From NCBI GenBank assembly GCA_947503525.1, contig CANNEA010000002.1, positions 1,240,001-1,304,000 on the forward strand: a stretch of DNA of 64,000 nucleotides. Reading direction: 5' to 3'. Each line of letters begins with the position of its first letter. Position 1 is the stretch's first letter. The notes below the pieces were generated by a model, which was not told where the DNA came from, ran no database searches, and was given only the letters and a program-made list of their open reading frames with translations. Below, one piece after another: positions 43,914 to 62,552 of the stretch. The translations under genes and the position numbers were made by a program. Source of the stretch: an uncultured Carboxylicivirga sp. (GTDB lineage: Bacteria > Bacteroidota > Bacteroidia > Bacteroidales > Marinilabiliaceae).

Positions 43914-46007
43914 TTGGAGGTATCCGCAACAATTCAATTTATTAACGCCTTATTGGCTGGAATTGCCATTGTATTTGGTATTTTAAGCCTGGTTTTGGCC
44001 ACATCCGGCCGACTTAAATCAACTTTCTTTTATTTTGGTTTAATTGCCATATTTGCGGGGTTTTACTATTTATTAATTGGCATGTATACTGGCGCTTATT
44101 ACATTCTTGATAGTGTTGGCAAGGATTATGGAAGCACCTTATTATTTATTGCCCTTTGCTCCTACATTGCTTCCTTTAGTTTATTTCCATTTTTTATATG
44201 TAGTTATTCCGGTTTTTGCAAACCAGTTTTAAAATGGTCGATTACCTCATTAATGGCAATAAGCGTTTTAATGTTATTGGTGTGGGGATTTAATGATGGT
44301 GTGCAATATTGGAATATTGTGGCTCATGTTTCAACTATAGGCATTATAGTATATGGTCTTCTTGCCTCAAGGTATTTAATGCTTAAGGGGCAAAAACGTT
44401 CGGGTAAAATAGTGTTTGCTTTGTTCGCACTATTTGGTCTATTGATTTTTGAGGATATTGTACATGTTCATCTAACAGAGTATTATCCCTTTGATTTACC
44501 AAATGGTATAATGCCACTGGATTATTACCTCTTGTTTTTTATTGCTTTTATGGGAAGTGAAATCTATTTGGTATTTAAACGATCGATGGATGTAGAACAT
44601 CAGCTTAATATGCACTCCAAACGTTATGCTGAAGTAATAGGCAATATTACCCTCTTAACAATTGAGGTTAATTCCAATGGTCAGCTTATTAAAGTCAATC
44701 CTTATTTTGCGGAAATAACAGGTTATAAAAGTGAAGATTTACAATGTGAGGATTGGGTTAAACTTATTGTTCCTGAGAACGAAATTGAAGAACGTAAAAA
44801 AATCTATCAATCAATAAGTCCCGAATCCAGAAACCTAAGCTATTATGGTAGCCTACTGACAAAAAGTGGGGAGTTAAAAAAAATGAGTTGGACCGTAGTT
44901 GCACGCTTCTCAGAAACAAATGAATATAAGGGTATTATTGGATTTGGTCTGGACATAACGGAAAGGGAAAATGCTTACGTTAAAATTCAGGAACTAAAAG
45001 ATAAGCTGGAATTAGAGAACCGATCTTTAAAGAGTCAGATTTCTGACTCGATATCGAACTGTTCAATTATATGTGAAAGTTCGGCAAGTGTTTATGCTTA
45101 TGAAAAAGCGATTGAAGTAGCTAAAACAGATTCCATTGTATTATTGGAAGGTGAGACAGGTGTTGGCAAAGAGGTGTTTGCAAAATTAATTCATCAGGAA
45201 AGCCTGCGAAGTGACAAAGAAATGATTACCATTAATTGCTCGGCTATTCCAAAAGATTTGATAGAGAGTGAGTTGTTTGGGCATGAAAAAGGGGCTTTTA
45301 CCGGAGCATCAAAACTACGTAAAGGAAAATTTGAATTAGCTTCTGGAGGTACCTTGTTTCTTGATGAGATAGGCGAACTTCCATTAGAAGTGCAGCCAAA
45401 ACTTTTGAGAGTCTTACAAGATGGAATGCTCGAGAGAGTTGGTGGAGAGAAAAGTATAGATACAGATGTTCGAATAATTGTTGCTACCAACCGAGTTTTA
45501 AAACAAGAGGTAAAGTTAGGTAATTTTCGTAAGGATCTGTATTATCGATTAAATGTATATCCGATTACTATACCTCCTTTGCGTAAACGTAAAGAAGATA
45601 TACCTGTTTTAACAGAGTATTTTACTAATCTATATAGTGAGAAATATAATAAGGGTATTTCTGCGATATCAGAGAATACGCATGAGTCATTTCTTAAATA
45701 TTCCTGGCCTGGAAATATTCGGGAATTGAAGAATGTTATTGAAAGAGCAGTTATTAATAACAAATCTGAAGTGCTGAAAACGTATGGCTTATTAGAAGAG
45801 GTCAAGGCAAATCAAGTTGAAGAAAAGCTTAGTGATTTAGACTCGCTGGAGGAAGTGGAACGTAAACATATTAGTGAGGTACTGGAGAGCGTTAATTGGA
45901 AAATTCATGGTGCAAATGGAGCTGCTGAAATATTGAAAATGAATCCAAGTACCCTACGTTCTCGCATGAAGAAGCTAAATATTGTAAAAGTTCCTATTCT
46001 GAATTAA
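43914..46007 (+). CDS. Membrane-anchored sigma-54-dependent transcriptional activator
   Basis: The 697-residue product has seven predicted membrane helices (to about residue 215), a PAS domain (about 240-350), a coiled-coil linker, a sigma-54 AAA+ domain (about 385-620) and a Fis-type helix-turn-helix at the C-terminus (about 650-690). Walker A is GETGVGKE (413-420), and the sigma-54-contacting loop GAFTGA is intact at 460-465. It therefore should activate sigma-54 promoters directly from the membrane. The start codon is a TTG at 43914: an in-frame stop lies 15 bases upstream and no ATG precedes the first helix. It lies 1.2 kb upstream of a gene block with a sigma-54 motif. Confidence 0.93.
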   Translation: MEVSATIQFINALLAGIAIVFGILSLVLATSGRLKSTFFYFGLIAIFAGFYYLLIGMYTGAYYILDSVGKDYGSTLLFIALCSYIASFSLFPFFICSYSGFCKPVLKWSITSLMAISVLMLLVWGFNDGVQYWNIVAHVSTIGIIVYGLLASRYLMLKGQKRSGKIVFALFALFGLLIFEDIVHVHLTEYYPFDLPNGIMPLDYYLLFFIAFMGSEIYLVFKRSMDVEHQLNMHSKRYAEVIGNITLLTIEVNSNGQLIKVNPYFAEITGYKSEDLQCEDWVKLIVPENEIEERKKIYQSISPESRNLSYYGSLLTKSGELKKMSWTVVARFSETNEYKGIIGFGLDITERENAYVKIQELKDKLELENRSLKSQISDSISNCSIICESSASVYAYEKAIEVAKTDSIVLLEGETGVGKEVFAKLIHQESLRSDKEMITINCSAIPKDLIESELFGHEKGAFTGASKLRKGKFELASGGTLFLDEIGELPLEVQPKLLRVLQDGMLERVGGEKSIDTDVRIIVATNRVLKQEVKLGNFRKDLYYRLNVYPITIPPLRKRKEDIPVLTEYFTNLYSEKYNKGISAISENTHESFLKYSWPGNIRELKNVIERAVINNKSEVLKTYGLLEEVKANQVEEKLSDLDSLEEVERKHISEVLESVNWKIHGANGAAEILKMNPSTLRSRMKKLNIVKVPILN

Positions 46008-46011
46008 CTTA

Positions 46012-46983
46012 TTAGAAACGTTTTCCGATGAAAAAACGGTACTGCTCTGTCGCTGAATCTAAAGAATAGGCTTTGTGGTTAATGCTTCGTATAAGTGAAT
46101 AAGCCGTGAATCCAGCAAAAAAGTATTTTCCTTCGTAGCCTAATTCGCCACGTAGTTGAACTTGCCCATGGAGGTGCCTTTCAAGTTCGCTTAACCCATT
46201 GTTTTCGTTAACTCTTACATGTTTATACCCACCACCCGGTGTGGCACTGATGTTAACAAAGAAATGTTTGCTAATTACCCAATTGTAGGCATAACCAATG
46301 GATAAGCCTGTGGCGAAATATCGGAAGCCATTAATTTCAAAATCTTCACCTATTTCGTTGGGTAACTCTTTTGGAAAGAAGCCGTCTGGTGATAATGCCT
46401 CGTCATAATTAACAAATAAGCCAAGGAGTAAACTACCAGCACTTTTTACTTGAATTTGTGTGCGTGCAACTGAAGCTTTGTTTGAGTAGCGTTTGTGGTT
46501 GACCACATAATTGATGATAGCACCGGTGCTAATGGTATGCATGTCCGGCAATTGGGGAGATTGGCTGTGCGGCCATTCCATAAAATCTGAGGGGTTTTTT
46601 AAGTAGTAGCCCTTGTAAATTTGAAAATGACTATCAAAACTAAGGTTTTTCATGAAGACATTAAATTGCAAATCGAAGCGCGTGGTTTTGCCATAATTTG
46701 TTTTCTGCGAATCAGTTTGAGGCAGACCAAATCCAAGGGAGACTCCTATGAACTTGTAGTTAATGCCCAGTCCCAGTGCATTGGGACTATTTGGTAATAG
46801 ATTTAAACGATCACTCTCTTTTTGTATGCTTAGTGCATTATGCTTATAACTATTATAAATGCGTAAGGTCAAGCGGTCGGTGTGGTCGATAAAGAATGTG
46901 GAATCGGTAAGGTTTATTTTCTGAGCATAGCCGGAGCTGGAGATTGCAATAAGTAAAACGATAAGAGAAAATATTTTCTTCAT
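46012..46983 (-). CDS. DUF4421-family outer membrane protein
   Basis: From ATG 46983 (MKKIFSLIVLLIAISSSGYAQ, a signal peptide) the product is 323 residues; the frame is open eight codons further. The mature part is beta-rich and the segments TDSTFFIDHTDRLTLRIYNSYK, LGLGINYKFIGVSLGFGLP and the strand-like C-terminus fit the DUF4421 family found in this phylum. Probably an outer membrane barrel; its function is unknown. It is convergent with the sigma-54 activator (4-base gap) and divergent from the sulfatase block. Confidence 0.78.
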   Translation of the reverse strand: MKKIFSLIVLLIAISSSGYAQKINLTDSTFFIDHTDRLTLRIYNSYKHNALSIQKESDRLNLLPNSPNALGLGINYKFIGVSLGFGLPQTDSQKTNYGKTTRFDLQFNVFMKNLSFDSHFQIYKGYYLKNPSDFMEWPHSQSPQLPDMHTISTGAIINYVVNHKRYSNKASVARTQIQVKSAGSLLLGLFVNYDEALSPDGFFPKELPNEIGEDFEINGFRYFATGLSIGYAYNWVISKHFFVNISATPGGGYKHVRVNENNGLSELERHLHGQVQLRGELGYEGKYFFAGFTAYSLIRSINHKAYSLDSATEQYRFFIGKRF

Positions 46984-47070
46984 TTGTTTGAGCTCAGTTA
47001 TTATCAAAAGTAACTAATATAATCCATTTCGGAAACACCTAACTTTTGGATGAGGTTGGTGTAAAAAATT

Positions 47071-47100
47071 GCGAAATATCGCGATTTAATGACATTTCGC
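47071..47100 (+). promoter_or_regulatory. Inverted repeat, candidate enhancer site for the sigma-54 activator
   Basis: GCGAAAT at 47071-47077 and ATTTCGC at 47094-47100 are perfect complements 16 bases apart, and between them lies the palindrome ATCGCGAT (47078-47085). The centre is about 110 bases upstream of the start expected from the GG-N10-GC motif, a usual distance for an enhancer-binding protein. It is also upstream of the divergent DUF4421 gene. Confidence 0.55.
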
Positions 47101-47168
47101 ATGTTTTGCACCTTGTTATTTAGATTCATTCTATCTATAACTTGCAACATAGTATTGTCTTGCATCTT

Positions 47169-47186
47169 TTGGAATATAGCTTGCTT
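47169..47186 (+). promoter_or_regulatory. Candidate sigma-54 promoter of the sulfatase block
   Basis: The 18-base motif TTGGAATATAGCTTGCTT has GG at 47171-47172 and GC at 47183-47184 with exactly ten bases between, and TTGCTT at the -12 side. The -24 side is TTGGAA rather than TTGGCA. It lies 28 bases upstream of the first gene of the block. Confidence 0.65.
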
Positions 47187-47213: not shown

Positions 47214-47480
47214 ATGCCAAAGATCGAAGTCAGTGTTACAATTGACTCCAATAAAATGGAGGAATTTGTTAATACACGGAAAACACTTATCGAACGATTA
47301 AATCGCATTGAAGGACTAAAAGTTCTTGAGTCCAATCAAATTGATAATGCCTATCAGCTCAATTTAAATTTCAATGATTCCGAATCGGTTACAGACATCA
47401 CTCACAGTAAGTGGTTTGTTTTTCTATCTGGGGCTGTAAAAGTACTGGGAGATAATGCAAAAATCGTAATAACAAGTTAG
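47214..47480 (+). CDS. Small cytoplasmic protein of unknown function
   Basis: The 88-residue product (MPKIEVSVTIDSNKMEEFVNTRKTL) has no signal peptide. The strand-helix-strand pattern and the stretch VLGDNAKIVITS suggest a ferredoxin-like fold as in small monooxygenase-like proteins, but no family is recognised. It is the first gene behind the sigma-54 motif, and the only non-exported product of the block. Confidence 0.7.
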   Translation: MPKIEVSVTIDSNKMEEFVNTRKTLIERLNRIEGLKVLESNQIDNAYQLNLNFNDSESVTDITHSKWFVFLSGAVKVLGDNAKIVITS

Positions 47481-47507: not shown

Positions 47508-47978
47508 ATGAAAAAAATAATCTATTTAGCGTGCTTTTTAATTGCCACAGGTACAAGTTCAATTTTTGCACAAAGTGAAGCAGATGTGATAGAGATGACT
47601 CGTTCACTTCTTAAGTTGGAGAAAAAAGCTGCAGTAGCAGAAGCAATGGTATTAAGCACAGAAGAAGCAAACGTTTTTTGGCCTCTTTATGAAGAATACA
47701 ATGGGAAGTTGTATGAGGTACAGAGCAAGCGGGTAAACATTATGAATGATTTTGGAGAGCAATATGAAACCTTGAGCGATGAGCAAGCTGACGTGATTAT
47801 GACCCAGTATTTTGCGTATCAAAGTGAATTGATGAAGCTTAAGAAACAGTATTATAAAAAGTTTAAAAAAATACTGCCCTTGGGTAAAGCTGCGCGCTAT
47901 ATGCAAATAGAGAATAAAGTAGAAACTTTAATCGACGCTCAATTGGCAGTGGAGTTGCCACTAATAGAAACTAAATAA
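47508..47978 (+). CDS. Small secreted helical protein, Spy/CpxP-like in build
   Basis: The 156-residue product has a signal peptide (MKKIIYLACFLIATGTSSIFA) and a mature part that is almost entirely helical, with the motif EEANVFWPLYEEYNGKLYEV and a C-terminal basic helix pair. It resembles periplasmic Spy/CpxP-type or LTxxQ chaperone-like proteins in build; I cannot confirm membership. It follows the first gene by 27 bases and precedes the next by five. Confidence 0.7.
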   Translation: MKKIIYLACFLIATGTSSIFAQSEADVIEMTRSLLKLEKKAAVAEAMVLSTEEANVFWPLYEEYNGKLYEVQSKRVNIMNDFGEQYETLSDEQADVIMTQYFAYQSELMKLKKQYYKKFKKILPLGKAARYMQIENKVETLIDAQLAVELPLIETK

Positions 47979-47983: not shown

Positions 47984-48904
47984 ATGACTAAAAAAGTGGG
48001 CATAGCTTATATACACCTTGTAGTGGTCATTACCTTGTTGATTTTAACTACTGAGTTTGTAAGGGCTCAGGAATTAGAGCCGCGCAGTTTGGCCAATGTA
48101 CCTGTTGGAACCAGTTTTGGACTGGTAAGCTATGGTTTTACAACGGGTAATATTCTCTATGATCCGGCTTTGAACCTGGACAATCTGCATGCTAGTGTGC
48201 ATTCGGCGACAGGCCTTTATGTAAGAGCTTTCGATTTTTTTGGTATGAGTGCCAAGTATAACATTATACTTCCTCTTGTAAATGGGCATTGGGATGGTAC
48301 TTTTGAAGGAGGAGATACTGAGACGAGTCGGTCAGGACTGGCTGATGCACGTGTAAGCTTTTCCTTTAATTTTATTGGATCTCCAGCTTATAAAAAAGAG
48401 GAGTTTGCCAATTATCACCAGGAAACAATATCCGGCATGAGTTTTCAGTTGATAGCACCTACGGGTCAATACCATAAGGATAGATTAATAAATATTGGAT
48501 CTAACCGTTGGGCCTTTAAAACCCAATATGGTATTTCGCATCATATCAATAATTGGTTTATAGAAGCGGCTGCCAACGTTTGGGTGTTTAGTAAAAACAA
48601 ACAGTTCTTAAATGATAATACCGTACAGCAGAAACCTCTTGGTGTAGTAAAACTGCATTTTATTCGCTCATTTGAAAATAAAATGTGGGCGGCATTAGGC
48701 TTGGCTTATGCCTTTGGAGGCACTTCTTACTTAAATAACAATAGAAAAGATACCTACCTGTCGACCATGAGGCTCGGCTTGGTTGTTTCGGTACCTGTAA
48801 ATGCTACTCACAGTTTTAAAGTAGTAGCCTTAACAGCACGCCGTTTTGAACAGGGTGCAGATTTTGATTCACTGAGTTTAGCTTATCAATTTGCTTGGAA
48901 TTAA
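47984..48904 (+). CDS. PF13557-like outer membrane transporter
   Basis: The 306-residue product has a signal peptide (about 1-29, ending VRAQ) and a barrel-like mature part. The sequence RSLANVPVGTSFGLVSYGFTTGNILYDPALNLDNLHA is typical of the MetA-pathway/phenol-degradation transporter family (PF13557), which is linked to uptake of hydrophobic or aromatic compounds; the C-terminus YQFAWN is barrel-like. Its place just upstream of a sulfatase suggests import of substrate or desulfated product. Confidence 0.8.
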   Translation: MTKKVGIAYIHLVVVITLLILTTEFVRAQELEPRSLANVPVGTSFGLVSYGFTTGNILYDPALNLDNLHASVHSATGLYVRAFDFFGMSAKYNIILPLVNGHWDGTFEGGDTETSRSGLADARVSFSFNFIGSPAYKKEEFANYHQETISGMSFQLIAPTGQYHKDRLINIGSNRWAFKTQYGISHHINNWFIEAAANVWVFSKNKQFLNDNTVQQKPLGVVKLHFIRSFENKMWAALGLAYAFGGTSYLNNNRKDTYLSTMRLGLVVSVPVNATHSFKVVALTARRFEQGADFDSLSLAYQFAWN

Positions 48905-48922
48905 CACTTAAACTTAAACGAT

Positions 48923-51229
48923 ATGAAACAACAATTTTCGTTTTTCACAGCATTAATAATGCTATTAGGCATTATTCAAATTAATGCCCAAGAAAACAAA
49001 GAATTTAAAGGAAAGATCGGGAATACCTTGCCCGAATCAGAAGAATATTGGCCTACGCCGGTAGCTCCGGCAAAGGATGCGCCAAACGTATTGGTTTGGT
49101 TGATTGACGATATGGGATATGGACACAGTAGTGCCTTTGGTGGATTAACGCCAATGCCTACCATTGATAAGTTGGCTGAAAATGGCTTGCGTTACAATAA
49201 TTTCCATACAACAGCCTTGTGTTCACCATCGCGTGCATCAATTGCAGCGGGGCGTAATCACCACAACCTGGGTATGGGTTCGCACTCTTTAACAGCTATG
49301 GGTTTCCCTGGTTATAATGCCCATCCGCCTGCATCGGCCAAAGGGTTTGCCGACATCTTGAAAAAAGAAGGTTGGAGTACCATGTTCCTTGGAAAATGGG
49401 ATCATACACCACAGTGGGAAGGTACCTTTGCCGGACCATTTGACCGTTGGCCTTCAGGTGATGGTTGGGAACACTTTTACGGGTTTATGTCGGGCGATAT
49501 GAACAACTTCAACCCAATTATGTGGGTAGATCACACGCCTGTTCAGCCTAACTACGATGCGCCGGGTTACCATGTTAATAAAGACATGTCGACCAAAGCC
49601 ATTGAATGGATATCTATGTTAAAGGCCTCTAATCACAAAAAGCCTTTCTGTATGTTTTGGGCCACCGGAGCCGTTCATGCCCCTCACCATGCCCCAAAAA
49701 ACTGGATTAAAAAGTTTGAAGGTAAATTTGATATGGGATACGACAAGGCTCGTGAATTAATTTTAGCCAATCAAATTGAAATGGGTATTGTGCCAAAGGG
49801 TACAAAACTGTCAGCTCGCGATGAGGAAATTCCTGCCTGGGAAACTTTAAACGATAAAGAAAAAGCATTGTATGCCCGCCAGATGGAAGCCTTTGCAGGG
49901 CAATTGGCTTATACCGATTATGAGTTTGGTAAAATATTAGATTACCTTGATAAGATTGGTGAGTTAGATAATACCATCGTTATTTTCACCTCTGATAACG
50001 GCGGATCAGCCGAAGGTGCATTGCATGGTACATTTAACGAAAATGGTTTCTTTAACGGAATGCCAAATATTCCTTACGAAACCAATGCGCAGTATATTAA
50101 TGAGTGGGGTAATAAAGTGGGTGTTTGGCACGTTACTGCCGGATGGACGCAAGCGGGTAATACCCCTTTCCAGTTTTATAAGCAAAGTGCCCACCGTGGA
50201 GGAAATGCGGATGCTTTGGTAGTTTCATGGCCTAAGGGAATTGATCCTGAAAACAACGGACAGATACGTGAGCAATACCATCATATCATAGATATTTGCC
50301 CTACCATTTTAGAGGCCTGTGGTGTTGAAGCGCCTAAGGTGATTGATGGAGTTGAGCAAATACCTTTTGATGGTACGCCAATGAACTATTCATTTAATAA
50401 ACCTAAAGCTAAAGATACGCGTACGGTTCAGTATTACGAATTATTTGGTAACCGTGCTATATATGCTGATGGATGGACAGCCGTTACTCTGCATCGCGAT
50501 AAGCGACCTTGGATATTAAATGCTGAAGGTACTTTAGCCGATGACAAATGGGAACTGTACAACCTGAAAGAGGACTTTGCTCAAAGCAACGACTTAGCTG
50601 CGAAGTATCCGGAAAAACTGGAAGAGCTAAAAGCCTTGTTTGAAGTGGAAGCTAAAAAGAACAATGTATATCCATTGGATGGAGATATTGGCCCTCGCTT
50701 TGCCAAAATGCAAGCACAGGCTGCACCTAAAGAAAAAGAATTGGTGTACTGGCCGCCTGCAGCTATTCGTGTACACGAGTCGGTTTCGCCACCTCTAAAG
50801 GGCAAATCGCATGAGTTAATCGCAGACGTTGATATTCCATCTAATGGCGATGGTGACGGCATGTTAGTAACAGCCGGTGGACGAACTTCGGGTTATGCCT
50901 TTATGGTTTTAGATCAACAACTGGTGTACATCTACAATTTTGTTGGCAATCGCACGGTACTCATGTCTTCTGAAAATGTACCTACGGGCAAATCGCAATT
51001 GAAAATGGTGTTTACCAATACGGATAAATATGAAGGTGATGCTGAACTATTTATCAACAACAAAAGTGTAGGTAAAGTGCACATTCCTAAAACCATACCA
51101 ATTACTTACTCCATTGAAGAAACTTTTGATGTGGGACAAGATACCGGTTCGCCAATTATTGAAGATACCTATGCTGTGCCTTTTAAAAATACGGCTCTGC
51201 AGAAGTTGACGGTACGGATTGGAGAATAA
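48923..51229 (+). CDS. Type I sulfatase, long arylsulfatase form
   Basis: The 768-residue product has a signal peptide (about 1-22, ending NAQ) and an alkaline-phosphatase-fold sulfatase domain. Metal ligands are Asp62-Asp63 in WLIDDMGYGH, and Cys100 in LCSPSRASIAAGR is the formylglycine precursor (C-x-P-S-R). VIFTSDNGGSAEG gives the other metal ligands. Beyond the catalytic part, residues about 620-768 form a beta-rich domain, as in the long mycobacterial-type arylsulfatases. It should be periplasmic. Maturation needs a formylglycine enzyme that is not in the window. A strong stem-loop follows the gene. The 54306 product is its close paralogue. Confidence 0.93.
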   Translation: MKQQFSFFTALIMLLGIIQINAQENKEFKGKIGNTLPESEEYWPTPVAPAKDAPNVLVWLIDDMGYGHSSAFGGLTPMPTIDKLAENGLRYNNFHTTALCSPSRASIAAGRNHHNLGMGSHSLTAMGFPGYNAHPPASAKGFADILKKEGWSTMFLGKWDHTPQWEGTFAGPFDRWPSGDGWEHFYGFMSGDMNNFNPIMWVDHTPVQPNYDAPGYHVNKDMSTKAIEWISMLKASNHKKPFCMFWATGAVHAPHHAPKNWIKKFEGKFDMGYDKARELILANQIEMGIVPKGTKLSARDEEIPAWETLNDKEKALYARQMEAFAGQLAYTDYEFGKILDYLDKIGELDNTIVIFTSDNGGSAEGALHGTFNENGFFNGMPNIPYETNAQYINEWGNKVGVWHVTAGWTQAGNTPFQFYKQSAHRGGNADALVVSWPKGIDPENNGQIREQYHHIIDICPTILEACGVEAPKVIDGVEQIPFDGTPMNYSFNKPKAKDTRTVQYYELFGNRAIYADGWTAVTLHRDKRPWILNAEGTLADDKWELYNLKEDFAQSNDLAAKYPEKLEELKALFEVEAKKNNVYPLDGDIGPRFAKMQAQAAPKEKELVYWPPAAIRVHESVSPPLKGKSHELIADVDIPSNGDGDGMLVTAGGRTSGYAFMVLDQQLVYIYNFVGNRTVLMSSENVPTGKSQLKMVFTNTDKYEGDAELFINNKSVGKVHIPKTIPITYSIEETFDVGQDTGSPIIEDTYAVPFKNTALQKLTVRIGE

Positions 51230-51240
51230 TTTTAAAATAA

Positions 51241-51267
51241 ACATAGAGGGATACTATCCCTCTATGT
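51241..51267 (+). other. Intercistronic stem-loop after the first sulfatase
   Basis: ACATAGAGGGA at 51241-51251 and TCCCTCTATGT at 51257-51267 form a perfect 11-base stem with a five-base loop. No T-tract follows (ATTGCCT), so it is not a regular terminator; it may protect the upstream transcript or cause partial termination. Confidence 0.8.
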
Positions 51268-51288: not shown

Positions 51289-52770
51289 ATGAAAATTATA
51301 AGCTATTACTTGGTTTTACTATTGTTTGTTAGCCTTTCGGCTTGTACCAACAGCGTTGACCAGAAAACGGACAAAGATGGAGAACCATCAATGGAATTTG
51401 AGAGAGGTTTTCCAGCAAATGAACAAACGATTAAACAGGCGCAACATGCAACTAAGTTAAGAAGAGCAATAGAAGCTTATAAATTCTTTTATCCAACAGT
51501 TGCTACCGAAGCGGTTATTCAACAGTTTGTGCCACATGGTGCTATTTTTAATGAGGTAGGTATTATTATGCCACAAGACCCTGAACAGCAGTTTTCAGTT
51601 GCAAATCAAGACACTCCATACATTATAGGTATTTTGGATCTAAAAAATGGTCCTATGGTGATTGATATACCAGCAGGGCCATACCTGGGCATTATGAACG
51701 ATCACCACATGGAATGGTTTGGAGATATGGGAGTAATAGGGCCGGGCAAGGGAGCTGGCGAAAAAGATCTTATTGTACCTCCCGGTTATACCGGCGAAAT
51801 TCCAAACGGGTATCATCCCTTTTATAGTAAAACCTATAAGGTTGTTATGCTTACAAGGGTAGTCGTTAAGTCTGGTTCTTATGATGAAGCAGTAACAATG
51901 GCTCAAAAAATAAAAGTTTACAAATTAAATGAAGATGCTAATTCTTCCAACTATAAAATTATTGATATAAAAGGCCAAAAGGCTCCTTTACCAATGTTGA
52001 GCTGGGAAAGAAACATGGACTATTGGAAGCAATTGCATGAAGTTGTTAATGATGAAACTGCCCAGGAAAAGCACAGAGTTATGCTTGGAATGTTAGCTGA
52101 TGTTGGCATTAAAAAAGGCGAATCATTTTCTCCTGATCCTGAACTAAGTACTATTTTAACTACTGCTGCAGAAACAGGTTTTCAAGAAATGAATGTGGCA
52201 TGTTTTGCCAATCCTCGTCCGGAAAGATTAATATGGGAAGATAGGCTATGGGAATCAATACCCTTGGCAGGGTCACTTGATCCTGAAACAAAAGAGTTTG
52301 GCAATGCTAATTACCGCGATTTACAAGCAAACGATCATTACTTTTTCTGTGCCTGGGGTACTTCAGCCGGAATAGGACGAAGACAAGTTGGTCAGGGCTC
52401 TCTCTATTTTGTTGGCCTTAAGGATGAAACAGGCGCCTACCTGAATGGAGGAAAGAATTACAAACTTACTATTCCCGGACCAGTTCCCGCTAAATTGTTT
52501 TGGTCTGTAACCGTTTATGATTCTGAGACACGAACAATTATTGATACTGATTTGGGAAGAGGTGCTGTACGAACTATGTTTGAAAATCCACAACCCAATG
52601 TTGATGGTTCTTTTGATATCTACTTTGGCCCTGATAAACCTGAGGGAAAAGAGAATCATTGGGTAAAAACTATTCCGGGAAAAGGGTGGTTCACATTTGT
52701 TCGGATGTATGGACCTGAAGAGCCAATTTTTAATGGGACATATAAATTACCAGATATTCAACTTCAATAA
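51289..52770 (+). CDS. DUF1254/DUF1214 lipoprotein
   Basis: The 493-residue product has a lipoprotein signal (LSACT, Cys19). The N-terminal half (about 50-230) matches DUF1254 (QDTPYIIGILDLKNGPMVIDIPAGPYLGIMND) and the C-terminal part (about 370-485) DUF1214 (LYFVGLKDETGAYLNGGKNYKLTIPG, KLFWSVTVYD). These proteins are secreted and their biochemical role is not established. It lies directly before a second, related DUF1254 gene and between two long sulfatases, which ties it to the same task. Confidence 0.88.
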   Translation: MKIISYYLVLLLFVSLSACTNSVDQKTDKDGEPSMEFERGFPANEQTIKQAQHATKLRRAIEAYKFFYPTVATEAVIQQFVPHGAIFNEVGIIMPQDPEQQFSVANQDTPYIIGILDLKNGPMVIDIPAGPYLGIMNDHHMEWFGDMGVIGPGKGAGEKDLIVPPGYTGEIPNGYHPFYSKTYKVVMLTRVVVKSGSYDEAVTMAQKIKVYKLNEDANSSNYKIIDIKGQKAPLPMLSWERNMDYWKQLHEVVNDETAQEKHRVMLGMLADVGIKKGESFSPDPELSTILTTAAETGFQEMNVACFANPRPERLIWEDRLWESIPLAGSLDPETKEFGNANYRDLQANDHYFFCAWGTSAGIGRRQVGQGSLYFVGLKDETGAYLNGGKNYKLTIPGPVPAKLFWSVTVYDSETRTIIDTDLGRGAVRTMFENPQPNVDGSFDIYFGPDKPEGKENHWVKTIPGKGWFTFVRMYGPEEPIFNGTYKLPDIQLQ

Positions 52771-52784: not shown

Positions 52785-54293
52785 ATGGAAATGAAAAGTG
52801 CTAAAATTAAAACAGTACTGTGTAGCTTAATCATAATGCTATCGCTTATGGTTACTGCACAAGAGATGCCCATTACGGGTAAGGTAAAAACCCACGTTGG
52901 TGAATTGGAATTCGATCACGGAGTTCCAACTAAAGCTACTTCTGATAAATTGTATTACGAACTAGACTACCACCGTGCAGTACAAGCCTATTTATGGTCT
53001 TTACCAATAGTTGGACAAGCACAATGGCGTCAATCGTATTTAGATTTATATGATTTAAAACCGAATCAATCGGTATATGCAAAAGAATTTAACGATCGTT
53101 CCTTGATACTGACGGCAAACGAATCAACGCCCTACATGTTCACATGGATGAATGTGAAAGAAAAAGCAGTGATTCTTAAGGTACCACCAGGGCCAATTAT
53201 TGGTCTTTATGTAGATTTCTGGCAGCGAGGCTTGTCCGATGTTGGTGTTCTTGGTAAATATGGTGGACGAGGGGGTACCTACGTATTTTCAGGTCCTGAA
53301 ACGCCTGTGGATAATATACCATACATTGAAGGGGCAACTTATTTAGAATCGAGAACCAACAATATTTGGTCTGTGGTTCGTTTTTCGGGTCCTGTTGAAA
53401 ACAGAGAGGAACTAATGAATGGTATGCGAACCTACTATTTTGATGAGGAACCGAAAATGGATATCGTTCCTGCCAATAATAAACCTGGGCGAAATTACCA
53501 ACCAAGAGGCATGGCCTATTGGGAAACCCTCCATAAAATATTACAAGAAGAACCGGTAGAAGAACGTGATCGTTTTTTTATGTATTTTCTTAAGGATATG
53601 GGTATTGAAAAAGGCAAACCTTTTAACCCGGATGCCCGACAAAAAGAAATATTACTTGATGCCTTAATTGTGGGAGAAGCCATGGCTAAGAATATGGTAT
53701 TTCGTGAAAGACTTGACGGTGTGCTACGAGATGACGGATGGAGACATATTATTGGAAGGGTTGAAGGTTCTGAGCCTGGCGATGCATGGGAACATACGCA
53801 ACGCACAAAATATTATGACAGATTCGATCCCAGATCAAGGTACACTTATGAGGCTTGCACGGTTTCTGAACGTATGGCTTTCGCTAAAAGTGGTTTCGGA
53901 TTAGGTTATGGAGGAATGTTTCTTGATGTGAATGGTGAACCATTGAAAGGTGATCAGTCTTATGTTATGAGAATTGAGCCTAATCCACCAGTTGAACTAT
54001 TCTGGGCAATAACTGTCTATGACACCGATACCCGAGGTCTGATCAATACCGATCAGCAAAAAGCGGAGATTGGTTCGGCCCACGAAACAACTCAGGTGAA
54101 CGAAGATGGTTCCACCTACGTATTTGTTGGCCCTAAAGCGCCTAAAGGATGGGAAAGCAATTGGGTAAAATCGATTCCTAAGCGTGGTTGGTTTCCTTAT
54201 TTACGCCTCTATTTTCCAACTGAAGCATTTTTCGACCAAAGCTGGAAGATGCCTCAGATTAAACCAGTTGATTTTAAAGATTATGAGAAATAA
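52785..54293 (+). CDS. Secreted DUF1254/DUF1214 protein
   Basis: The 502-residue product has a signal peptide (about 1-26, with SLMVTAQ) but no lipobox, unlike its neighbour. DUF1254 features appear around residues 95-220 (NESTPYMFTWMNVKEKAVILKVPPGPIIGLYVDFW), and DUF1214 around 370-490 (KGDQSYVMRIEPNPPVELFWAITVYDTDTRGLINTD). It starts 14 bases after the preceding paralogue, and the 54306 sulfatase follows after 12 bases, so the three are co-translated units of one transcript. Confidence 0.88.
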   Translation: MEMKSAKIKTVLCSLIIMLSLMVTAQEMPITGKVKTHVGELEFDHGVPTKATSDKLYYELDYHRAVQAYLWSLPIVGQAQWRQSYLDLYDLKPNQSVYAKEFNDRSLILTANESTPYMFTWMNVKEKAVILKVPPGPIIGLYVDFWQRGLSDVGVLGKYGGRGGTYVFSGPETPVDNIPYIEGATYLESRTNNIWSVVRFSGPVENREELMNGMRTYYFDEEPKMDIVPANNKPGRNYQPRGMAYWETLHKILQEEPVEERDRFFMYFLKDMGIEKGKPFNPDARQKEILLDALIVGEAMAKNMVFRERLDGVLRDDGWRHIIGRVEGSEPGDAWEHTQRTKYYDRFDPRSRYTYEACTVSERMAFAKSGFGLGYGGMFLDVNGEPLKGDQSYVMRIEPNPPVELFWAITVYDTDTRGLINTDQQKAEIGSAHETTQVNEDGSTYVFVGPKAPKGWESNWVKSIPKRGWFPYLRLYFPTEAFFDQSWKMPQIKPVDFKDYEK

Positions 54294-54305: not shown

Positions 54306-56618
54306 ATGAAAAACTATTTCATCTTATTGCTGAGCATATTTTTAGTATATGCTTGCCAGCCGAAGCAAGACGCTTCGCAGGAAGAAGATCCGAGAATGGC
54401 CGGATTTAAAGGAAAAATTGCCAAGACCTTTCAGGATTCGGAAGAAGACTGGCCTGTGGAGCCTAGCTTTACAGGTGAGGAACCCAATGTCCTTGTCATT
54501 CTTCTTGATGATGTGGGTTATGGGCACCTGGGACCTTATGGCGGTTTAACAGAAACGCCGAACATCGACAAACTGGCTAAGGATGGCTTGTTATATAACA
54601 ACTTCCATACAACCGCTCTTTGTTCACCATCGCGTGCAGCAATTCTTGCCGGCCGAAATTCGCACTCCATCGGAATGGGATCTCATGCACTATCAGCCAT
54701 GGGTTTCCCGGGTTATCGCGGGCGCGTACCATTTGAAGCCCAAGAGGTGACAAGAATTGCTCAGAAAGGCGGATGGACTACCTATGCCATTGGAAAATGG
54801 GATCATACCCCGGGTTTCCAGGTGCACCAGGTTGGACCATTTGACTACTGGCCTACCAGCGATGGTTTTGACCATACCTATACCTTTATGGCACCGGATG
54901 CCAATAACTTTACACCGGTTATGTTTGCAGGTCACGAACCTGTAGAGCCATCTCGTGGGAATCCTGACTATCACCTTTCAACAGATTTGTCTGACAAAGC
55001 AACGCATTATTTAACCGGGCAGGTGTCTATCGCACCGGACCGTCCTTTCTTTATGTTTTGGGCACCAGGTGGTATGCACGCTCCTCATCATGCGCCAAAG
55101 GAATACATCGATAAGTACAAGGGTAAGTTTGACATGGGTTGGGACAAGGCTCGTGAGCAAATCCATAAGAATCAGTTGGAGATGGGCGTTATCCCTGCCG
55201 GTTCAGCCCTAACTGAGCGCAATAAAGAAATTCCTGCCTGGGATTCATTGACTGAGGACGAGAAGCGCATGTATGCTCGCCAGATGGAGGCCTTTGCTGG
55301 CCAGCTCGACCACCTTGATATGGAGATTGGCCGCTTGATAGCTACACTGGAACGTATTGGTAAGTTAGATAATACACTAATCATTCTGACATCAGACAAT
55401 GGATCAAGTGGAGAAGGTGGACTTTCCGGATCGCATAACGAAATGCTGATTGTTAACAGCCAGCAAACACAGCTTGAGAATAACCTGGATCGCTACGATG
55501 CCTGGGGATCGGAAGCAACAAATAATCACTTCCATGCCGGTTGGGCATTAGCCGGAAACACACCATTCCAATATTTCAAACAAACGGTGCATAGTGGTGG
55601 AATTCAAGATCCAATGATCGTTCACTGGCCTGCCGGAATCAAGGGTAAAGGAGAAATCCGAGATCAATACCACCACATCATCGACATTGCACCAACAATC
55701 CTCGACGTGCTCGATCTTGAGTTTATGGAAGAGATTGATGGAATCAAGCAGATGCCGATAGACGGTATGAGTTTTGCCTATTCGTTCAATGATGCCAATG
55801 CTCCTGACCAACGTACCCGTCAGTATTACGAGATGTATGGTAACAGGGCCATTTACTTAGACGGCTGGAAAGCGGTGACCATTCATGGAAACCGTATGCC
55901 ATGGGATTTTGCAGGTACTTATAATTTCGATGATGACGTATGGGAGCTGTATCATGTTGACGAAGATTTTACAGAGTCTAATAACCTGGCCGATAAATAT
56001 CCTGAGAAGTTAGAAGAGCTGAAAGCAGCTTGGGAAGAGGAAGCCTGGAAGTATAACGTATTTCCGCTGTATGATGACCTGGGTGCCAGATTTTCTAATG
56101 TGGCCAAACTCTATGCCCCTCAACGTAAAGAATTCGTCTTTTATCCTCCGGGAGCTGTTCGAATCTCTGAGCCTTATTCTCCGCCGGTGAAAAACAAAAG
56201 CCATAGCCTAACGGCCTATGCTGATATCCCTAAGTCAGGTGCAAGTGGAGTGCTTGTGGCAGCAGGTGGTCTTTATGGTGGTTATTGCCTCTATGTTGAA
56301 AATGACCGACTGGTTTACGAATACAATGCCTATAATGAGGATAGATTTATCATTAAATCTAAGTCTAAACTTCCTAAGGGTGAAGTCGTGATGAAGGCGG
56401 TATACGATGTAAATGAGGATAAGACTGCTACAGTAACGCTATTTGTGAATGATAAGCAGGTTGGTCAAGGTGCGGTTAAGCGTACTCATCCTGGTCAGTT
56501 CTCCCTTTCTGAAACCTTTGATGTGGGAGAAGATACGGGTACATCAGTCTCAAAGAACTATACACGTGATAACAAGTTTACTGGTAATTTAGACAAGCTT
56601 GTTGTTAACTTGAAGTAG
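54306..56618 (+). CDS. Type I sulfatase, long arylsulfatase form, lipoprotein
   Basis: The 770-residue product has a lipoprotein signal (LVYACQ, Cys17), so it is membrane-anchored, unlike the first sulfatase. Metal ligands Asp68-Asp69 in ILLDDVGYGH and formylglycine site Cys106 in LCSPSRAAILAGR are intact, as is ILTSDNGSSGEG. A C-terminal beta-rich domain (about 620-770) matches that of the 48923 paralogue. The close similarity of the two suggests gene duplication with diverged localisation. A 14-base stem-loop follows. Confidence 0.93.
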   Translation: MKNYFILLLSIFLVYACQPKQDASQEEDPRMAGFKGKIAKTFQDSEEDWPVEPSFTGEEPNVLVILLDDVGYGHLGPYGGLTETPNIDKLAKDGLLYNNFHTTALCSPSRAAILAGRNSHSIGMGSHALSAMGFPGYRGRVPFEAQEVTRIAQKGGWTTYAIGKWDHTPGFQVHQVGPFDYWPTSDGFDHTYTFMAPDANNFTPVMFAGHEPVEPSRGNPDYHLSTDLSDKATHYLTGQVSIAPDRPFFMFWAPGGMHAPHHAPKEYIDKYKGKFDMGWDKAREQIHKNQLEMGVIPAGSALTERNKEIPAWDSLTEDEKRMYARQMEAFAGQLDHLDMEIGRLIATLERIGKLDNTLIILTSDNGSSGEGGLSGSHNEMLIVNSQQTQLENNLDRYDAWGSEATNNHFHAGWALAGNTPFQYFKQTVHSGGIQDPMIVHWPAGIKGKGEIRDQYHHIIDIAPTILDVLDLEFMEEIDGIKQMPIDGMSFAYSFNDANAPDQRTRQYYEMYGNRAIYLDGWKAVTIHGNRMPWDFAGTYNFDDDVWELYHVDEDFTESNNLADKYPEKLEELKAAWEEEAWKYNVFPLYDDLGARFSNVAKLYAPQRKEFVFYPPGAVRISEPYSPPVKNKSHSLTAYADIPKSGASGVLVAAGGLYGGYCLYVENDRLVYEYNAYNEDRFIIKSKSKLPKGEVVMKAVYDVNEDKTATVTLFVNDKQVGQGAVKRTHPGQFSLSETFDVGEDTGTSVSKNYTRDNKFTGNLDKLVVNLK

Positions 56619-56625
56619 CATAATA

Positions 56626-56660
56626 CAAATGCAGTTCGCTGAAAATGCGGGCTGCATTTG
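56626..56660 (+). other. Intercistronic stem-loop after the second sulfatase
   Basis: The arms 56626-56639 and 56647-56660 pair over 14 positions with two G-T pairs around a seven-base loop. No T-tract follows. The same type of element follows each of the three sulfatase genes. Confidence 0.8.
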
Positions 56661-56674: not shown

Positions 56675-58306
56675 ATGAAAAACCTATCATTATTGATTTG
56701 TGCACTATTATTAATGGCATCGTGCACCAATACAGCTAAAAAGCAAGAGAGTGGTCAGGAAGCAACTAAAGAAGTGGCTTACCAGCTTCCGCCCTATAAT
56801 CCCTTTTTAATACAAAACAGTCACTACCCCTCGGTGCATTTTAATCCGGCACAAAGCGATGTAAGTGCTTTGCCTTCCTGGAATATGAGTGGTACCATTA
56901 AAGAAGAGAATGTGCAGTGGTTGCCATGGGTCACTTCAATCGGAACCGTGCACCGTCCGTATGCAAATGGTGAAGAGGCCTTATTTGTATCCGGAACCAA
57001 TAAGGTAGGTAAAATTAAAATTAGTAATGGTGCCTTTGAATGGGTCGATGAAGTTGTTGTTCCAGGCTTTGAATATGAGGTGCCTGGAGATGATGAAATC
57101 AAGGCTACAGTTGATGAAATGATTGCTGGCGGGACGGATGAAGCTGAATACTTACCTCCTTATGCCAAACATGTGAAAGCCATCAAACAAAGTTCGGCTA
57201 ACATTGGCAATGGTATTTACACCATGATGGACAATGAAGGAAACTATTTCTGTGGTTTTGGAACCTCTATTTATAAAGTTAGTGATAAAACACCTGGCGA
57301 TATTAATTCGGAAATTGAAATCACCAAGTCTTTTAATGTTAAAGATGGCGTAACACCTGAAGAAGCCAAGCAGATTAGCCGGATTTTTGCTTTGGGTATG
57401 ACTTACGATGGGCACATTGCAGTGGCCATGCCAGGTATTATAGCCGTATTAACCCGCGACCTAAGCGATATGCAATATGTAATGTTGGATGGTGAAGCGG
57501 TAGACAATGGCATTAGCATTGATGATAAGGGTGGCATTTATTGCGTTACCTCAAAGTACATGCGTAAAATTGTTTGGGATGGCACTAAGCTTTCCGACAA
57601 AGAAGAAGATGGTGCCTGGAAAGCGGCCTACGATCATGTGCCAAATCCGAAAGCTCTATCGCGTGGCTCAGGTAATACACCTGCATTAATGGGGTTTGGG
57701 CCTGACGAAGACCACTTGGTATTTGTGGCCGATGCTGGCGATGACATTAGCGCTGTAGCTTTCTGGCGCGATGAAATACCTGAAGATTTTAAACAAAAAG
57801 AAGGCACCCAATCACGACGCATTGCTGATCAGATTAAGCTAACGATTGATGTGCCGGCTACCATCGAATGGTCGCCACACATTTATGGTAATGGCGTTAT
57901 GATGATGGCCTCGGCCTGGGAAGATCCCGTATATGATGAAAATGGAAAACTGGCCATTTTCGAAACCGTATTAACTGCCGGGGTAACACGTAAGCCTCCA
58001 GCAGCCGTTGAAAAATGGAGCTGGGACAAAGCCAGTCGATCACTAAAAAGTGATTGGACTAAGCACCGTGGTTTGCAATGGGCCTTACATCCTGTGTCAT
58101 CAACAAGTAATACCGTTACTTTAACGCTAGCTGAAAACGGAATATACTCTTTGGTAAGCTATGACTGGACAACGGGCAAAGAAGTGTCTAATTTAGTCTT
58201 AGGAAATAATCCTATTTTTAATACAGCTGGTGGCTTATTTATACCTGTTGATGAGAACAGAATATACATCACAGGTGTTATGGGACCAGTAATGATTACT
58301 AAATAG
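56675..58306 (+). CDS. Propeller-like lipoprotein of unknown function
   Basis: The 543-residue product is a lipoprotein (LLMASCTN, Cys17). The mature part has repeated strand-turn units (ALFVSGTNKVGKIKISNGAFEWVDEV, GIYTMMDNEGNYFCGFGTSIYKVSD, NGISIDDKGGIYCVTSKYMRKIVWDG) that suggest a beta-propeller, but I recognise no named family and no catalytic motif. It lies between two sulfatases, 56 bases after the first of them. A binding or enzyme role on the sulfatase product is possible, not shown. Confidence 0.75.
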   Translation: MKNLSLLICALLLMASCTNTAKKQESGQEATKEVAYQLPPYNPFLIQNSHYPSVHFNPAQSDVSALPSWNMSGTIKEENVQWLPWVTSIGTVHRPYANGEEALFVSGTNKVGKIKISNGAFEWVDEVVVPGFEYEVPGDDEIKATVDEMIAGGTDEAEYLPPYAKHVKAIKQSSANIGNGIYTMMDNEGNYFCGFGTSIYKVSDKTPGDINSEIEITKSFNVKDGVTPEEAKQISRIFALGMTYDGHIAVAMPGIIAVLTRDLSDMQYVMLDGEAVDNGISIDDKGGIYCVTSKYMRKIVWDGTKLSDKEEDGAWKAAYDHVPNPKALSRGSGNTPALMGFGPDEDHLVFVADAGDDISAVAFWRDEIPEDFKQKEGTQSRRIADQIKLTIDVPATIEWSPHIYGNGVMMMASAWEDPVYDENGKLAIFETVLTAGVTRKPPAAVEKWSWDKASRSLKSDWTKHRGLQWALHPVSSTSNTVTLTLAENGIYSLVSYDWTTGKEVSNLVLGNNPIFNTAGGLFIPVDENRIYITGVMGPVMITK

Positions 58307-58331: not shown

Positions 58332-59861
58332 ATGAAAAAAACACTTTTAACTATTGCAATGGCATTCCTGCTTGTGTTGGGAATGAGTGCACAGAAAAAC
58401 AAGAAACCCAATATTGTTGTGATATGGGGTGATGATGTAGGTTGGTTTAATGTAAGCGCCTACAATATGGGTATGATGGGTTATCGTACACCAAATATCG
58501 ACCGTATTGGTCAGGAAGGTATTGTATTTACCGATTGTTATGGAGAGAACTCCTGTACGGCAGGTAGAGCCGCTTTTATCACTGGTCAAAGTCCTTTCCG
58601 TACCGGATTGTTGAAAGTGGGATTACCAGGAGCAAAAGAAGGAATGAGCGAAAAGGATCCAACCTTGGCTGGCCTGCTTAAAGCGCATGGTTATACTACA
58701 GGCCAGTTTGGAAAAAACCACTTGGGTGATCGCGATGAGCATTTGCCAACCAATCATGGTTTTGATGAGTTCTTTGGGAATTTATATCACCTAAATGCTG
58801 AGGAGGAGCCTGAGAATGAGGATTACCCTAAGAATCCGGAATTTAAAGAAAAATTTGGCCCACGCGGTGTAATTCTATCTTCAGCTGATGGACCGATTAA
58901 AGATACTGGCCCGCTTACCCGTAAGCGCATGGAAACAGTAGATGAAGAATTCTTAGCCGGATCATTGGAATTTATGGAAAAAGCGCATAAAGAAGAAAAA
59001 CCGTTCTTTTTGTGGTTTAACTCATCTCGTATGCACATTTGGACGCACCTAAAGGAGGCTTCAAAAGGAGTGACAGGGCAAGGCGTATATGCCGATGGTA
59101 TGGCTGAGCATGATGGGCATGTTGGTCAGATTTTAGACAAATTGGCAGAACTAGGTATTGATGAAAATACCATTGTTATCTATTCAACCGATAATGGGGC
59201 TGAGACTTGTACGTGGCCTGATGGAGGTACCATTCCTTTTTATGGTGAAAAGAATACAACCTGGGAAGGTGGATTCAGAGTGCCGGCAGTTATGCGTTGG
59301 CCAGCTAAAATCAAGCCAGGTCAAATCAGTAATGAATTAATATCGCATCAGGATTGGTTACCAACTCTTATGGCTGCTGTAGGCGATGATAATATCAAAG
59401 AAGACCTTTTAAAAGGTAAAAAAGCCATTGGCCGTGATTACAAGGTACACCTTGACGGTTACAACTTCTTACCTTATATGTTGGGTGAAGAGACCAAAGG
59501 GCCGCGTAGAGAATTCTTCTATTTCACGGATGATGGTTCAATATCAGCGCTTCGTTATAACGATTGGAAAGTGATGTTTACGATGCAGGAAGCACACGGT
59601 CTTGAGGTGTGGAGTCAGCCATACACTCAGCTGCGTTTACCAATGATTACCAACTTAAAACGCGATCCATTTGAACGTGCCCATTACGAAGCTGAAGGTT
59701 TTGATCGTTGGGGTATAGATCGTCTGTTTGTATTGGTTCCTGCTCAAAGTGTTGTTAAAGACTTTTTAGTGACCTTCCAGCAGTATCCACCACGTCAGAA
59801 GCCGGGAAGTTTCTCATTGGATAGAGTATTGGAATCCTTACAGCAAAACAGTTCGCATTAA
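58332..59861 (+). CDS. Type I sulfatase with CTAGR active-site motif
   Basis: The 509-residue product has a signal peptide (about 1-20, MSAQ) and a compact sulfatase domain without the C-terminal extension of the other two. Metal ligands Asp34-Asp35 in IWGDDVGWFN and IYSTDNGAETCTW are present. The formylglycine site is Cys75 in SCTAGRAAF, so alanine replaces the proline of the usual C-x-P-x-R; C-x-A-x-R is an accepted variant. It is therefore a separate subfamily from the two long enzymes, perhaps acting on a different sulfate ester. A stem-loop follows. Confidence 0.92.
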   Translation: MKKTLLTIAMAFLLVLGMSAQKNKKPNIVVIWGDDVGWFNVSAYNMGMMGYRTPNIDRIGQEGIVFTDCYGENSCTAGRAAFITGQSPFRTGLLKVGLPGAKEGMSEKDPTLAGLLKAHGYTTGQFGKNHLGDRDEHLPTNHGFDEFFGNLYHLNAEEEPENEDYPKNPEFKEKFGPRGVILSSADGPIKDTGPLTRKRMETVDEEFLAGSLEFMEKAHKEEKPFFLWFNSSRMHIWTHLKEASKGVTGQGVYADGMAEHDGHVGQILDKLAELGIDENTIVIYSTDNGAETCTWPDGGTIPFYGEKNTTWEGGFRVPAVMRWPAKIKPGQISNELISHQDWLPTLMAAVGDDNIKEDLLKGKKAIGRDYKVHLDGYNFLPYMLGEETKGPRREFFYFTDDGSISALRYNDWKVMFTMQEAHGLEVWSQPYTQLRLPMITNLKRDPFERAHYEAEGFDRWGIDRLFVLVPAQSVVKDFLVTFQQYPPRQKPGSFSLDRVLESLQQNSSH

Positions 59862-59886: not shown

Positions 59887-59912
59887 AGCAGGCGGAGTTA
59901 CTTCCGCCTGCT
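59887..59912 (+). other. Intercistronic stem-loop after the third sulfatase
   Basis: AGCAGGCGGA at 59887-59896 and TCCGCCTGCT at 59903-59912 form a perfect ten-base GC-rich stem with a six-base loop. It is followed by ATTAAAACAAAA, not a T-tract, so it is not an intrinsic terminator by sequence. Confidence 0.8.
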
Positions 59913-59924: not shown

Positions 59925-61118
59925 ATGAATATTAAAGCCAAATACATCGTGTTTCTGCTTACATGTTTTATGTGCACATGTAATGCCTTGGCGGCTATAA
60001 ATGCCAGCCAGGATGCTAAGGACTTGCCGTATGGAAACAAGGGTTTTATATTCCAACACGAGAGTGGTGATTACTTAATGCACATTGAATTCAGAGGTCA
60101 ATTCAGGTTGGCCTATCCTACCGATGTGGATCCTATCTTAAATACCGACTATCAAAAAGAATCCGTTCACTTGAACATTCGTCGGGCTCGCCTTAAAGTA
60201 GGGGGACACACTTACAAAACTTGGTTAAAGTATTATCTGGAATACGAGTTGCAATCCACCAGTTTGCTTGATTTTAGATTAATGTATGAAAAAAATAAGG
60301 CCCTTAAAATAAAAGTGGGGCAGTGGAAAGTACAATATAACCGTGAACGCATTATTTCATCGGGCAAGCAGCAAACCATGGAGCGTTCTATCTTAACCCG
60401 TGCCTTTACGGTTGACCGTCAACAAGGCTTGTCCATCTTTGGGCATTTAGAAGGGCAGGGAGCTGCTAATTTTAACTATTGGGCTTCTGTTTTTATGGGA
60501 ACCGGTCGTGGTGCCACAGAAAATGATGATGAGCATCTAATGTATATGGGGCGCTTACAGTGGAATCCTAATGGAAAAGTATTAGCCTTTTCAGGATCAG
60601 ATATTGAATATCACGAAACTCTGGTCATGTTGTTGGCTATTGGCGGAGTCACAAATCGAAGTCCGTATACCAGATTCTCGCAAGGTGGAGGAGGGCAGTT
60701 GGAAGGCTTCGAAGATGGTGTGTCGGGGCAGTACCGAATAAATCAAATGATGCAGGAGTCGGCCGGAAAGATCAAGGGTTTCAGCTGGCAACAAGAGTTG
60801 CACTATAAGCAAATAAATGATAAATTGAATAAGCACAGAACCGAGATGATGGGGCATTTATTTCAGGCCGGATACGCTTTTAAGTGTAAGGAAGCAAGTA
60901 AAGATAAATTGGAAGTATACGGACGCCAGGCTTTTTATTATCCGACAATTAAGGATAAATCCCAATATAGAAGTGAATGGTCCTTGGGCATGAATTATTT
61001 TATTGTTGGGCATCGACTGAAAACAACAGGTGAACTGTCCCATATAAATTCACAATTTGAATCGGACGAACTACTCAGTGGCTGGCGCTATCGCTTGCAA
61101 TTGGATATTTCGTTTTAA
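59925..61118 (+). CDS. OprO/OprP-type porin
   Basis: The 397-residue product has a signal peptide (about 1-25) and a mature beta-barrel. HLNIRRARLKVGGHTYKTWLKYYLEYEL followed by KIKVGQWKVQYNRERIISSGKQQTMERS is the signature of the phosphate-selective porin family (PF07396), and it ends in aromatic LDISF. Such porins prefer anions, which fits a role in the passage of sulfate or sulfated compounds. It is separated from the preceding sulfatase only by a stem-loop. Confidence 0.88.
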   Translation: MNIKAKYIVFLLTCFMCTCNALAAINASQDAKDLPYGNKGFIFQHESGDYLMHIEFRGQFRLAYPTDVDPILNTDYQKESVHLNIRRARLKVGGHTYKTWLKYYLEYELQSTSLLDFRLMYEKNKALKIKVGQWKVQYNRERIISSGKQQTMERSILTRAFTVDRQQGLSIFGHLEGQGAANFNYWASVFMGTGRGATENDDEHLMYMGRLQWNPNGKVLAFSGSDIEYHETLVMLLAIGGVTNRSPYTRFSQGGGGQLEGFEDGVSGQYRINQMMQESAGKIKGFSWQQELHYKQINDKLNKHRTEMMGHLFQAGYAFKCKEASKDKLEVYGRQAFYYPTIKDKSQYRSEWSLGMNYFIVGHRLKTTGELSHINSQFESDELLSGWRYRLQLDISF

Positions 61119-62542: not shown

Positions 62543-62552
62543 GCTTTACTAT

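Follow-up and report, generated by a model that had tools for sequence, protein, structure and literature searches.

The 64,000-nucleotide stretch analysed here (the window; positions 1,240,001 to 1,304,000 of the forward strand of contig CANNEA010000002.1, assembly GCA_947503525.1) comes from an uncultured Carboxylicivirga sp. It raises the question of whether a membrane-bound activator controls the long run of sulfatase and outer-membrane genes that starts 1.2 kb downstream of it. The activator gene (43914..46007, + strand) encodes a predicted sigma-54 enhancer-binding protein (EBP), and a promoter-like -24/-12 site precedes g1 (47214..47480, + strand), the first gene of the run. In bacteria of this kind, sets of sulfatase genes are usually treated as components of polysaccharide loci with other regulators. 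Here, the 43914 protein very probably acts as a membrane-anchored EBP that switches on the operon 47214-66776, a regulator-target link that we infer. Local control of an adjacent operon by an EBP is a known mechanism, and the target gene set is unusual. The dedicated local circuit proposed in an earlier note on this DNA is favoured by the presence of rpoN, by a site that is exceptional within 298 kb, by the concentration of strong sites beside EBP genes and by the recurrence of the arrangement in two distant assemblies.

The activator and the site before the operon

The open reading frame (ORF) of the activator comprises 697 amino acids (AA). Its Pfam matches are PAS (residues 250-350), Sigma54_activat (386-551; 230.5 bits, cut-off 20.2), an AAA lid and HTH_8, a Fis-type helix-turn-helix (HTH) domain (644-688; 31.2 bits, cut-off 22), and no receiver domain is among the matches listed. 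The Walker A (413-420), GAFTGA (460-465) and Walker B (478-485) motifs are intact, as is the arginine-finger region FRKDLYYRL (538-546), and hydropathy places six hydrophobic helices within residues 12-184. The intact GAFTGA loop and the membrane segment described in the earlier note were borne out by motif positions and hydropathy, respectively. The membrane helices appear weakly 7TMR-DISM-like, with a match to PF07695 under its cut-off (16.3 bits against 29, E-value 0.0098). A structure model of the whole EBP had a mean predicted local distance difference test (pLDDT) score of 38.6 and was not used. Judged by its domains, the 43914 protein is a complete membrane-anchored sigma-54 EBP and is predicted to activate sigma-54 polymerase.

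The earlier note depended on a sigma-54 gene in the genome, and one rpoN was found (a single match to PF04552, 182.2 bits, in an open frame of 493 AA). The profile list for the genome contains 18 EBP matches, ten of them with strong scores; the remaining eight, low-scoring matches are likely other AAA+ proteins. The activator shares an AAA+ domain with GAFTGA, a Fis-type HTH and the lack of a receiver domain with EBPs of the PrdR, NorR and FhlA type. However, its N-terminus differs from these families, as it consists of membrane helices and a PAS domain. An assignment to any of them was rejected, since the best NCBIfam scores were far under the family cut-offs (PrdR NF041552, 355 against 795; NorR NF003451, 338 against 476; FhlA NF011958, 336 against 830).

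The site TTGGAATATAGCTTGCTT (47169..47186, + strand) contains the exact GG-N10-GC motif claimed in the earlier note at 47171-47184 (GG at 47171-47172, GC at 47183-47184), with TTGG and TTGC boxes. Transcription would be expected to start near 47196, and 27 bases separate the 18-mer from the start codon of g1. On a custom weighted consensus scale with a maximum of 25, whose weights were chosen after TTGGAATATAGCTTGCTT was known, the site scores 23 and is the top site of the window. This score was reached in only 4 of 3,000 dinucleotide shuffles of the 206-bp gap upstream of g1. Across both strands of about 298 kb of the same genome, three sites score at least 23. Of these, 47169-47186 alone was classed as intergenic with a gene directly downstream; the remaining two were classed as coding, although one lies 131 bases upstream of a gene and one at the edge of a stretch. 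Genome-wide, TGGNANNNNNNTTGC occurs in 304 copies compared with 157 for the backward control. By these counts, 47169-47186 is an exceptional, promoter-like sigma-54 site from which an rpoN-dependent start is predicted.

The near/far comparison of EBP loci gives a simple measure of how reliably targets can be predicted from the neighbourhood of an EBP. It was based on the best 80 of 267 EBP loci from a scan of species genomes, 57 of which extend 5.2 kb or more on the downstream side of the EBP. Genes were defined as ORFs of at least 100 AA, and the 150 bases upstream of each were scored. Genes starting at most 2.5 kb from the EBP match were considered near and those more than 4 kb away far, while genes at 2.5-4 kb were excluded, as were genes with a cut upstream stretch and any ORF that overlaps the EBP match. 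Sites scoring at least 23 precede 22 of 246 near genes but only 1 of 500 far genes (Fisher p 2e-10), and with a threshold of 21 these counts rise to 36 near and 10 far genes (p 1e-10). Taking the far rate as chance, about 1 in 45 strong neighbouring sites would be a chance match, which is a rough value given the one far event.

Related cassettes and distribution

Two of the 80 EBP loci carry a sulfatase similar to that of g9 in the operon (at least 55 % identity, start at most 5.2 kb downstream), namely L063 (Calditrichaceae MAG_33) and L064 (Deltaproteobacteria Zod_Metabat.1176). Further sulfatase cassettes could have been missed, since only the 57 loci noted above extend this far. The sulfatases lie downstream of the EBP and are 64 % and 59 % (two in L063) and 56 % (L064) like g9. 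Two further similarities of 29 %, in L090 and L126, are weak and were not counted. In both cassettes, the genes between the EBP and the sulfatase include, by Pfam, one of the ABM family and one for a Phenol_MetA_deg protein, and L063 additionally contains a DUF4136 gene and a relative of g2, which match g16 and g2 of the operon. The arrangement of EBP, -24/-12 site, leading gene, Phenol_MetA_deg protein and g9-type sulfatase is similar in the window, where the leading gene, g1, encodes 88 AA with a possible ABM fold. In the structure model of g1, the best Foldseek matches are LsrG (E-value 4.4e-4) and ABM-named proteins with template modelling scores of 0.5-0.6. In contrast to the window, the L063 and L064 EBPs have no membrane helices or PAS domain by Pfam, with a GAF match under its cut-off in L063, and tblastn detected no DUF1254/DUF1214 relative in these two stretches.

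The sites before the ABM genes that open these rows are ATGGCATATTTTTGGCGA or ATGGCATACTTTTAGCCA, scoring 19.5 each. Two further ABM genes were found near such EBPs, one 4.6 kb from the EBP of L062 (site score 21.5) and one 5 kb from L259, a paralogous EBP encoded by the L063 genome (site score 21). All five ABM or ABM-like genes collected near such EBPs (g1, L062, L063, L064 and L259) have a site of at least 19.5 within the 150 bases upstream, although L062 and L259 were added after the loci already collected had been searched for ABM, and the loci cannot be counted as independent. The background for this score, over 120 bases upstream of ORFs of at least 150 AA, amounts to 5 of 175 genes for the window's own genome and 3 of 51 for those loci. 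An rpoN gene is present in all three genomes of L062, L063 and L064.

The sites in L063 (11419-11447), L064 (2752-2782) and L259 (15646-15675) are separated from the start codon by 10 to 12 bases, compared with 27 at g1, so their transcripts would be nearly leaderless; here, the ABM start in L064 was taken as 2782 and is listed as 2770. L259 also contains a second site, TTGGCATTCCTCTGGCAT (5907-5924), which is nearly identical to the one before its ABM gene at 15646 and is located upstream of a 331-AA ORF without a Pfam match.

A scan for co-conservation of motif and activator had been suggested in the earlier note; the arrangement recurs in L063 and L064 with weaker sites, and no activator orthologue was found in 13 genomes of the same genus. 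At an E-value of 1e-100, the search of 39 other relatives returned one match, covering only the AAA and HTH parts, and the 13 same-genus genomes gave no match. When residues 1-369 were searched against 394 further genomes of the phylum sample, three weak matches were obtained, all restricted to the PAS region. The Omp85 gene that flanks the activator on its left is conserved in each of the five same-genus regions inspected (L243-L247, from the 13 same-genus genomes). The 14 to 18 kb beyond it in these regions hold no match to the activator and the block, apart from EBP matches of 52 % to the AAA part in L243 and L245. The set of activator and block is lineage-specific in these comparisons and may have been acquired.

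Plasmids were also searched. Relatives of g5 are widespread there, with 217 of 72,556 plasmid records matching at an E-value of 1e-5. Among six sulfatase regions from 205 matching records, one has an EBP match, with a response-regulator-like start. In four plasmid EBP regions (from 199 records), nothing similar to the block proteins was detected at an E-value of 1e-5, and no ABM relatives were found on plasmids. A broader reading of these data is a mobile sigma-54 sulfatase cassette that crosses phyla and consists of an EBP, a -24/-12 promoter, an ABM-fold leader gene, an outer-membrane protein and a CTAGR sulfatase. In such a cassette, the sensor part of the EBP would change, being either cytoplasmic and GAF-like or made of membrane helices and PAS, while the promoter logic would be kept, and here DUF1254/DUF1214 genes and more sulfatases would have been added to give a 17-gene operon. 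This reading is speculative and rather unlikely.

The shared gap and competing explanations

Several observations weigh against the proposed circuit, including the parts given in it to g1 and to an inverted repeat upstream. The sites in L063 and L064 score only 19.5, a value that 5 of 175 genes of the window's own genome also reach. The EBPs of these loci and of the window are alike only in the AAA+ and HTH parts, at about 51 %, while other EBPs reach up to 54 %, and their N-termini differ. For g1, profile comparison gave ABM an hhalign probability of 0.4 %, no Pfam match was obtained, and the pLDDT of the model is only 66.6. Around the other EBPs of the genome, the stretches examined contain no site of at least 23 that was scored as intergenic, and local control is therefore not visible for them. 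An EBP match was found in none of 18 DUF1254-centred regions from the window's own and related genomes and in 3 of 20 g9-centred regions of Bacteroidales, where all three have, by eye, a response-regulator-like start. As EBPs are absent or response-regulator-like near these relatives, the link belongs to this cassette and not to the enzymes generally. Finally, the 206-bp gap upstream of g1 also serves a divergent DUF4421 gene.

This last point, together with the counts below, bears most on the inverted repeat GCGAAAT-N16-ATTTCGC (47071..47100, no strand assigned), which the earlier note had linked to the activator. With one extra base per end (47070-47101), it has perfect 8-bp arms, a 16-bp spacer and a position about -110 from the expected start, so its existence and location stood. 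Enhancers bound by EBPs commonly lie near -110, which speaks for such a role. However, shuffles and genome counts did not set the repeat apart from chance. A perfect 8-bp inverted repeat with a spacer of up to 30 is contained in 570 of 3,000 shuffles of the gap, and near copies with at most two mismatches are not enriched (23 per strand compared with 30 in the backward control). The exact repeat occurs at two places in the 6.56 Mb genome. The second copy (C3:608195) is located about 36 bases before a 120-AA ORF, and by eye no GG-N10-GC lies between them. In the common divergent gap, only 63 bases separate the repeat from the listed start of the DUF4421 gene. The somewhat better-supported explanation is that the repeat is part of the operator or promoter of that gene, or has no role, and it is kept as a candidate enhancer of the block with less than even confidence. 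The enhancer of FhlA is CATTTCGTACGAAATG, as given in the available part of the source (PMC4987338). The half-sites of the repeat resemble those of CATTTCGTACGAAATG in the opposite arrangement; an FhlA-like enhancer in the gap was rejected, as the best match to CATTTCGTACGAAATG is 11 of 16. No orthologous gap for a comparative footprint was found in the searches with the activator described above.

A second explanation accepts the sigma-54 promoter and assigns it to another EBP of the genome, with the neighbouring activator working elsewhere. The genome encodes ten strong EBPs, and since those other than the 43914 protein show no strong intergenic site beside them, some of them probably act at a distance. 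The G+C content also allows separate histories. It is 35 % in the activator gene and 35-37 % in the left flank, 40-46 % at 48000-62000 and 36-38 % at the ends of the run, a contrast that may point to different origins of the activator gene and of the central part of the operon. Nevertheless, strong sites concentrate beside the EBP in the 80 loci, and control by a distant EBP is improbable, though slightly less so than a chance match of the site.

A chance match of GG-N10-GC, with the operon read from an ordinary sigma-A promoter that may lie further upstream or be internal, is the least probable explanation, because few gap shuffles reach the score, the gap has no sigma-A-like pair and the site recurs before the ABM gene in related loci, even though matches do arise in coding DNA, as the other two strong sites in 298 kb show, and sigma-70-like matches exist in the region, yet more rarely than in shuffles (33 compared with 45.7). 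The sigma-A promoter consensus of the Bacteroidetes type is TTTG/TAnnTTTG. No such pair with at most two mismatches occurs on either strand of the gap, compared with 2.45 per strand in shuffles, a weak test given that the divergent DUF4421 gene has no such pair either.

The operon and its predicted control

The 14-gene block of the earlier note is a co-directional run, but its 14th gene is cut by the end of the window, and the run in fact comprises 17 genes up to 66776 (window numbering). The gaps within it measure up to 67 bases and are followed by a gap of 601 bp, and we infer that the run is one transcript. Its products include three sulfatases, two DUF1254/DUF1214 proteins, a Porin_O_P protein, other outer-membrane-type proteins and a DUF4136 protein. 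All genes named here are on the + strand and were assigned by Pfam unless stated otherwise. After g1, g2 (47508..47978, 156 AA) has, by eye, a signal-peptide-like start and resembles a gene in the L063 cassette (38 %), and g3 (47984..48904) encodes an outer-membrane type protein of the Phenol_MetA_deg family. The sulfatases g4 (48923..51229) and g7 (54306..56618), both with a CSPSR motif, enclose g5 (51289..52770) and g6 (52785..54293), each with DUF1254 and DUF1214. The 543-AA product of g8 (56675..58306) is without a Pfam match, and no relatives at an E-value of 1e-60 were found in the 394 genomes sampled from the phylum. It is followed by the third sulfatase, g9 (58332..59861, CTAGR motif), and by g10 (59925..61118, Porin_O_P family). 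Neither g11 (61130..61678, outer-membrane-like by eye) nor g12 (61706..62542, signal-peptide-like start by eye) has a Pfam match. The product of g13 (62532..63116) belongs to OMP_b-brl, and that of g14 (63153..64000, continuing to 64337) is weakly Omp85-like, under the cut-off. The remaining genes, g15-g17, extend to 66776, with g16 encoding the DUF4136 protein.

Pfam detected neither SusC nor SusD in g1-g17, and the operon does not qualify as a SusC/SusD polysaccharide locus. A pair of TonB-plug (SusC-like) and SusD genes (10363-15029 of L166, 73362-78028 in window numbering) begins 6.6 kb past the operon, behind a 905-AA ORF. The DUF4421 gene (46012..47007, - strand, Pfam) stands between activator and operon and, as it uses the same gap, might belong to the circuit.

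A strong hairpin lies directly 3' of each of the three sulfatase genes inside the operon. Folding places a perfect 12-bp hairpin in the gap between g4 and g5 (51241..51267, -18.0 kcal/mol for the gap), a hairpin between g7 and g8 (56626..56660, -22.2 kcal/mol) and a perfect 10-bp hairpin between g9 and g10 (59887..59912, -21.9 kcal/mol), none of them assigned to a strand. In stretches of the same genome, 17 gaps between co-directional genes measure 40-80 bases, and 5 of them contain a perfect stem of at least 9 bp; within the operon this applies to 4 of 5 such gaps, elsewhere to 1 of 12. Internal terminators were rejected, as no T run follows the hairpins on the + strand, and perhaps they are RNA-end or stoichiometry elements.

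For Clostridiales, EBPs have been described with predicted target operons and the promoter consensus TTGGCATNNNNNTTGCT, but these are Firmicutes, and sulfatase operons are not among the targets in the available part of the study (PMC6615313). The available part of an RpoN study lists a sulfatase gene with a change of -1.6 and names no EBP-sulfatase operon (PMC5979394), and the main text, as available, of a study on sigma-54 regulons over 16 phyla uses the term sulfatase 0 times (PMC12316311). In a literature coverage that mostly excludes subscription journals, no precedent for an EBP-sulfatase operon and no paper on DUF1254 with arylsulfatase, or on sulfatases with RpoN in sulfur starvation or in Bacteroidetes regulons, was found.

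Under the proposed control by the neighbouring activator, a signal at the inner membrane or at the PAS domain would free the AAA+ ring, and the HTH domain would bind within 47008-47168. The GAFTGA loop would then remodel the sigma-54 polymerase held at 47169-47186, and the operon would make exported sulfatases, DUF1254/DUF1214 proteins and outer-membrane proteins, which would probably serve to import and desulfate a sulfated compound. If true, the sigma-54 switch would provide a handle on the signal and the substrate of the unexplained sets of DUF1254/DUF1214 proteins and sulfatases.

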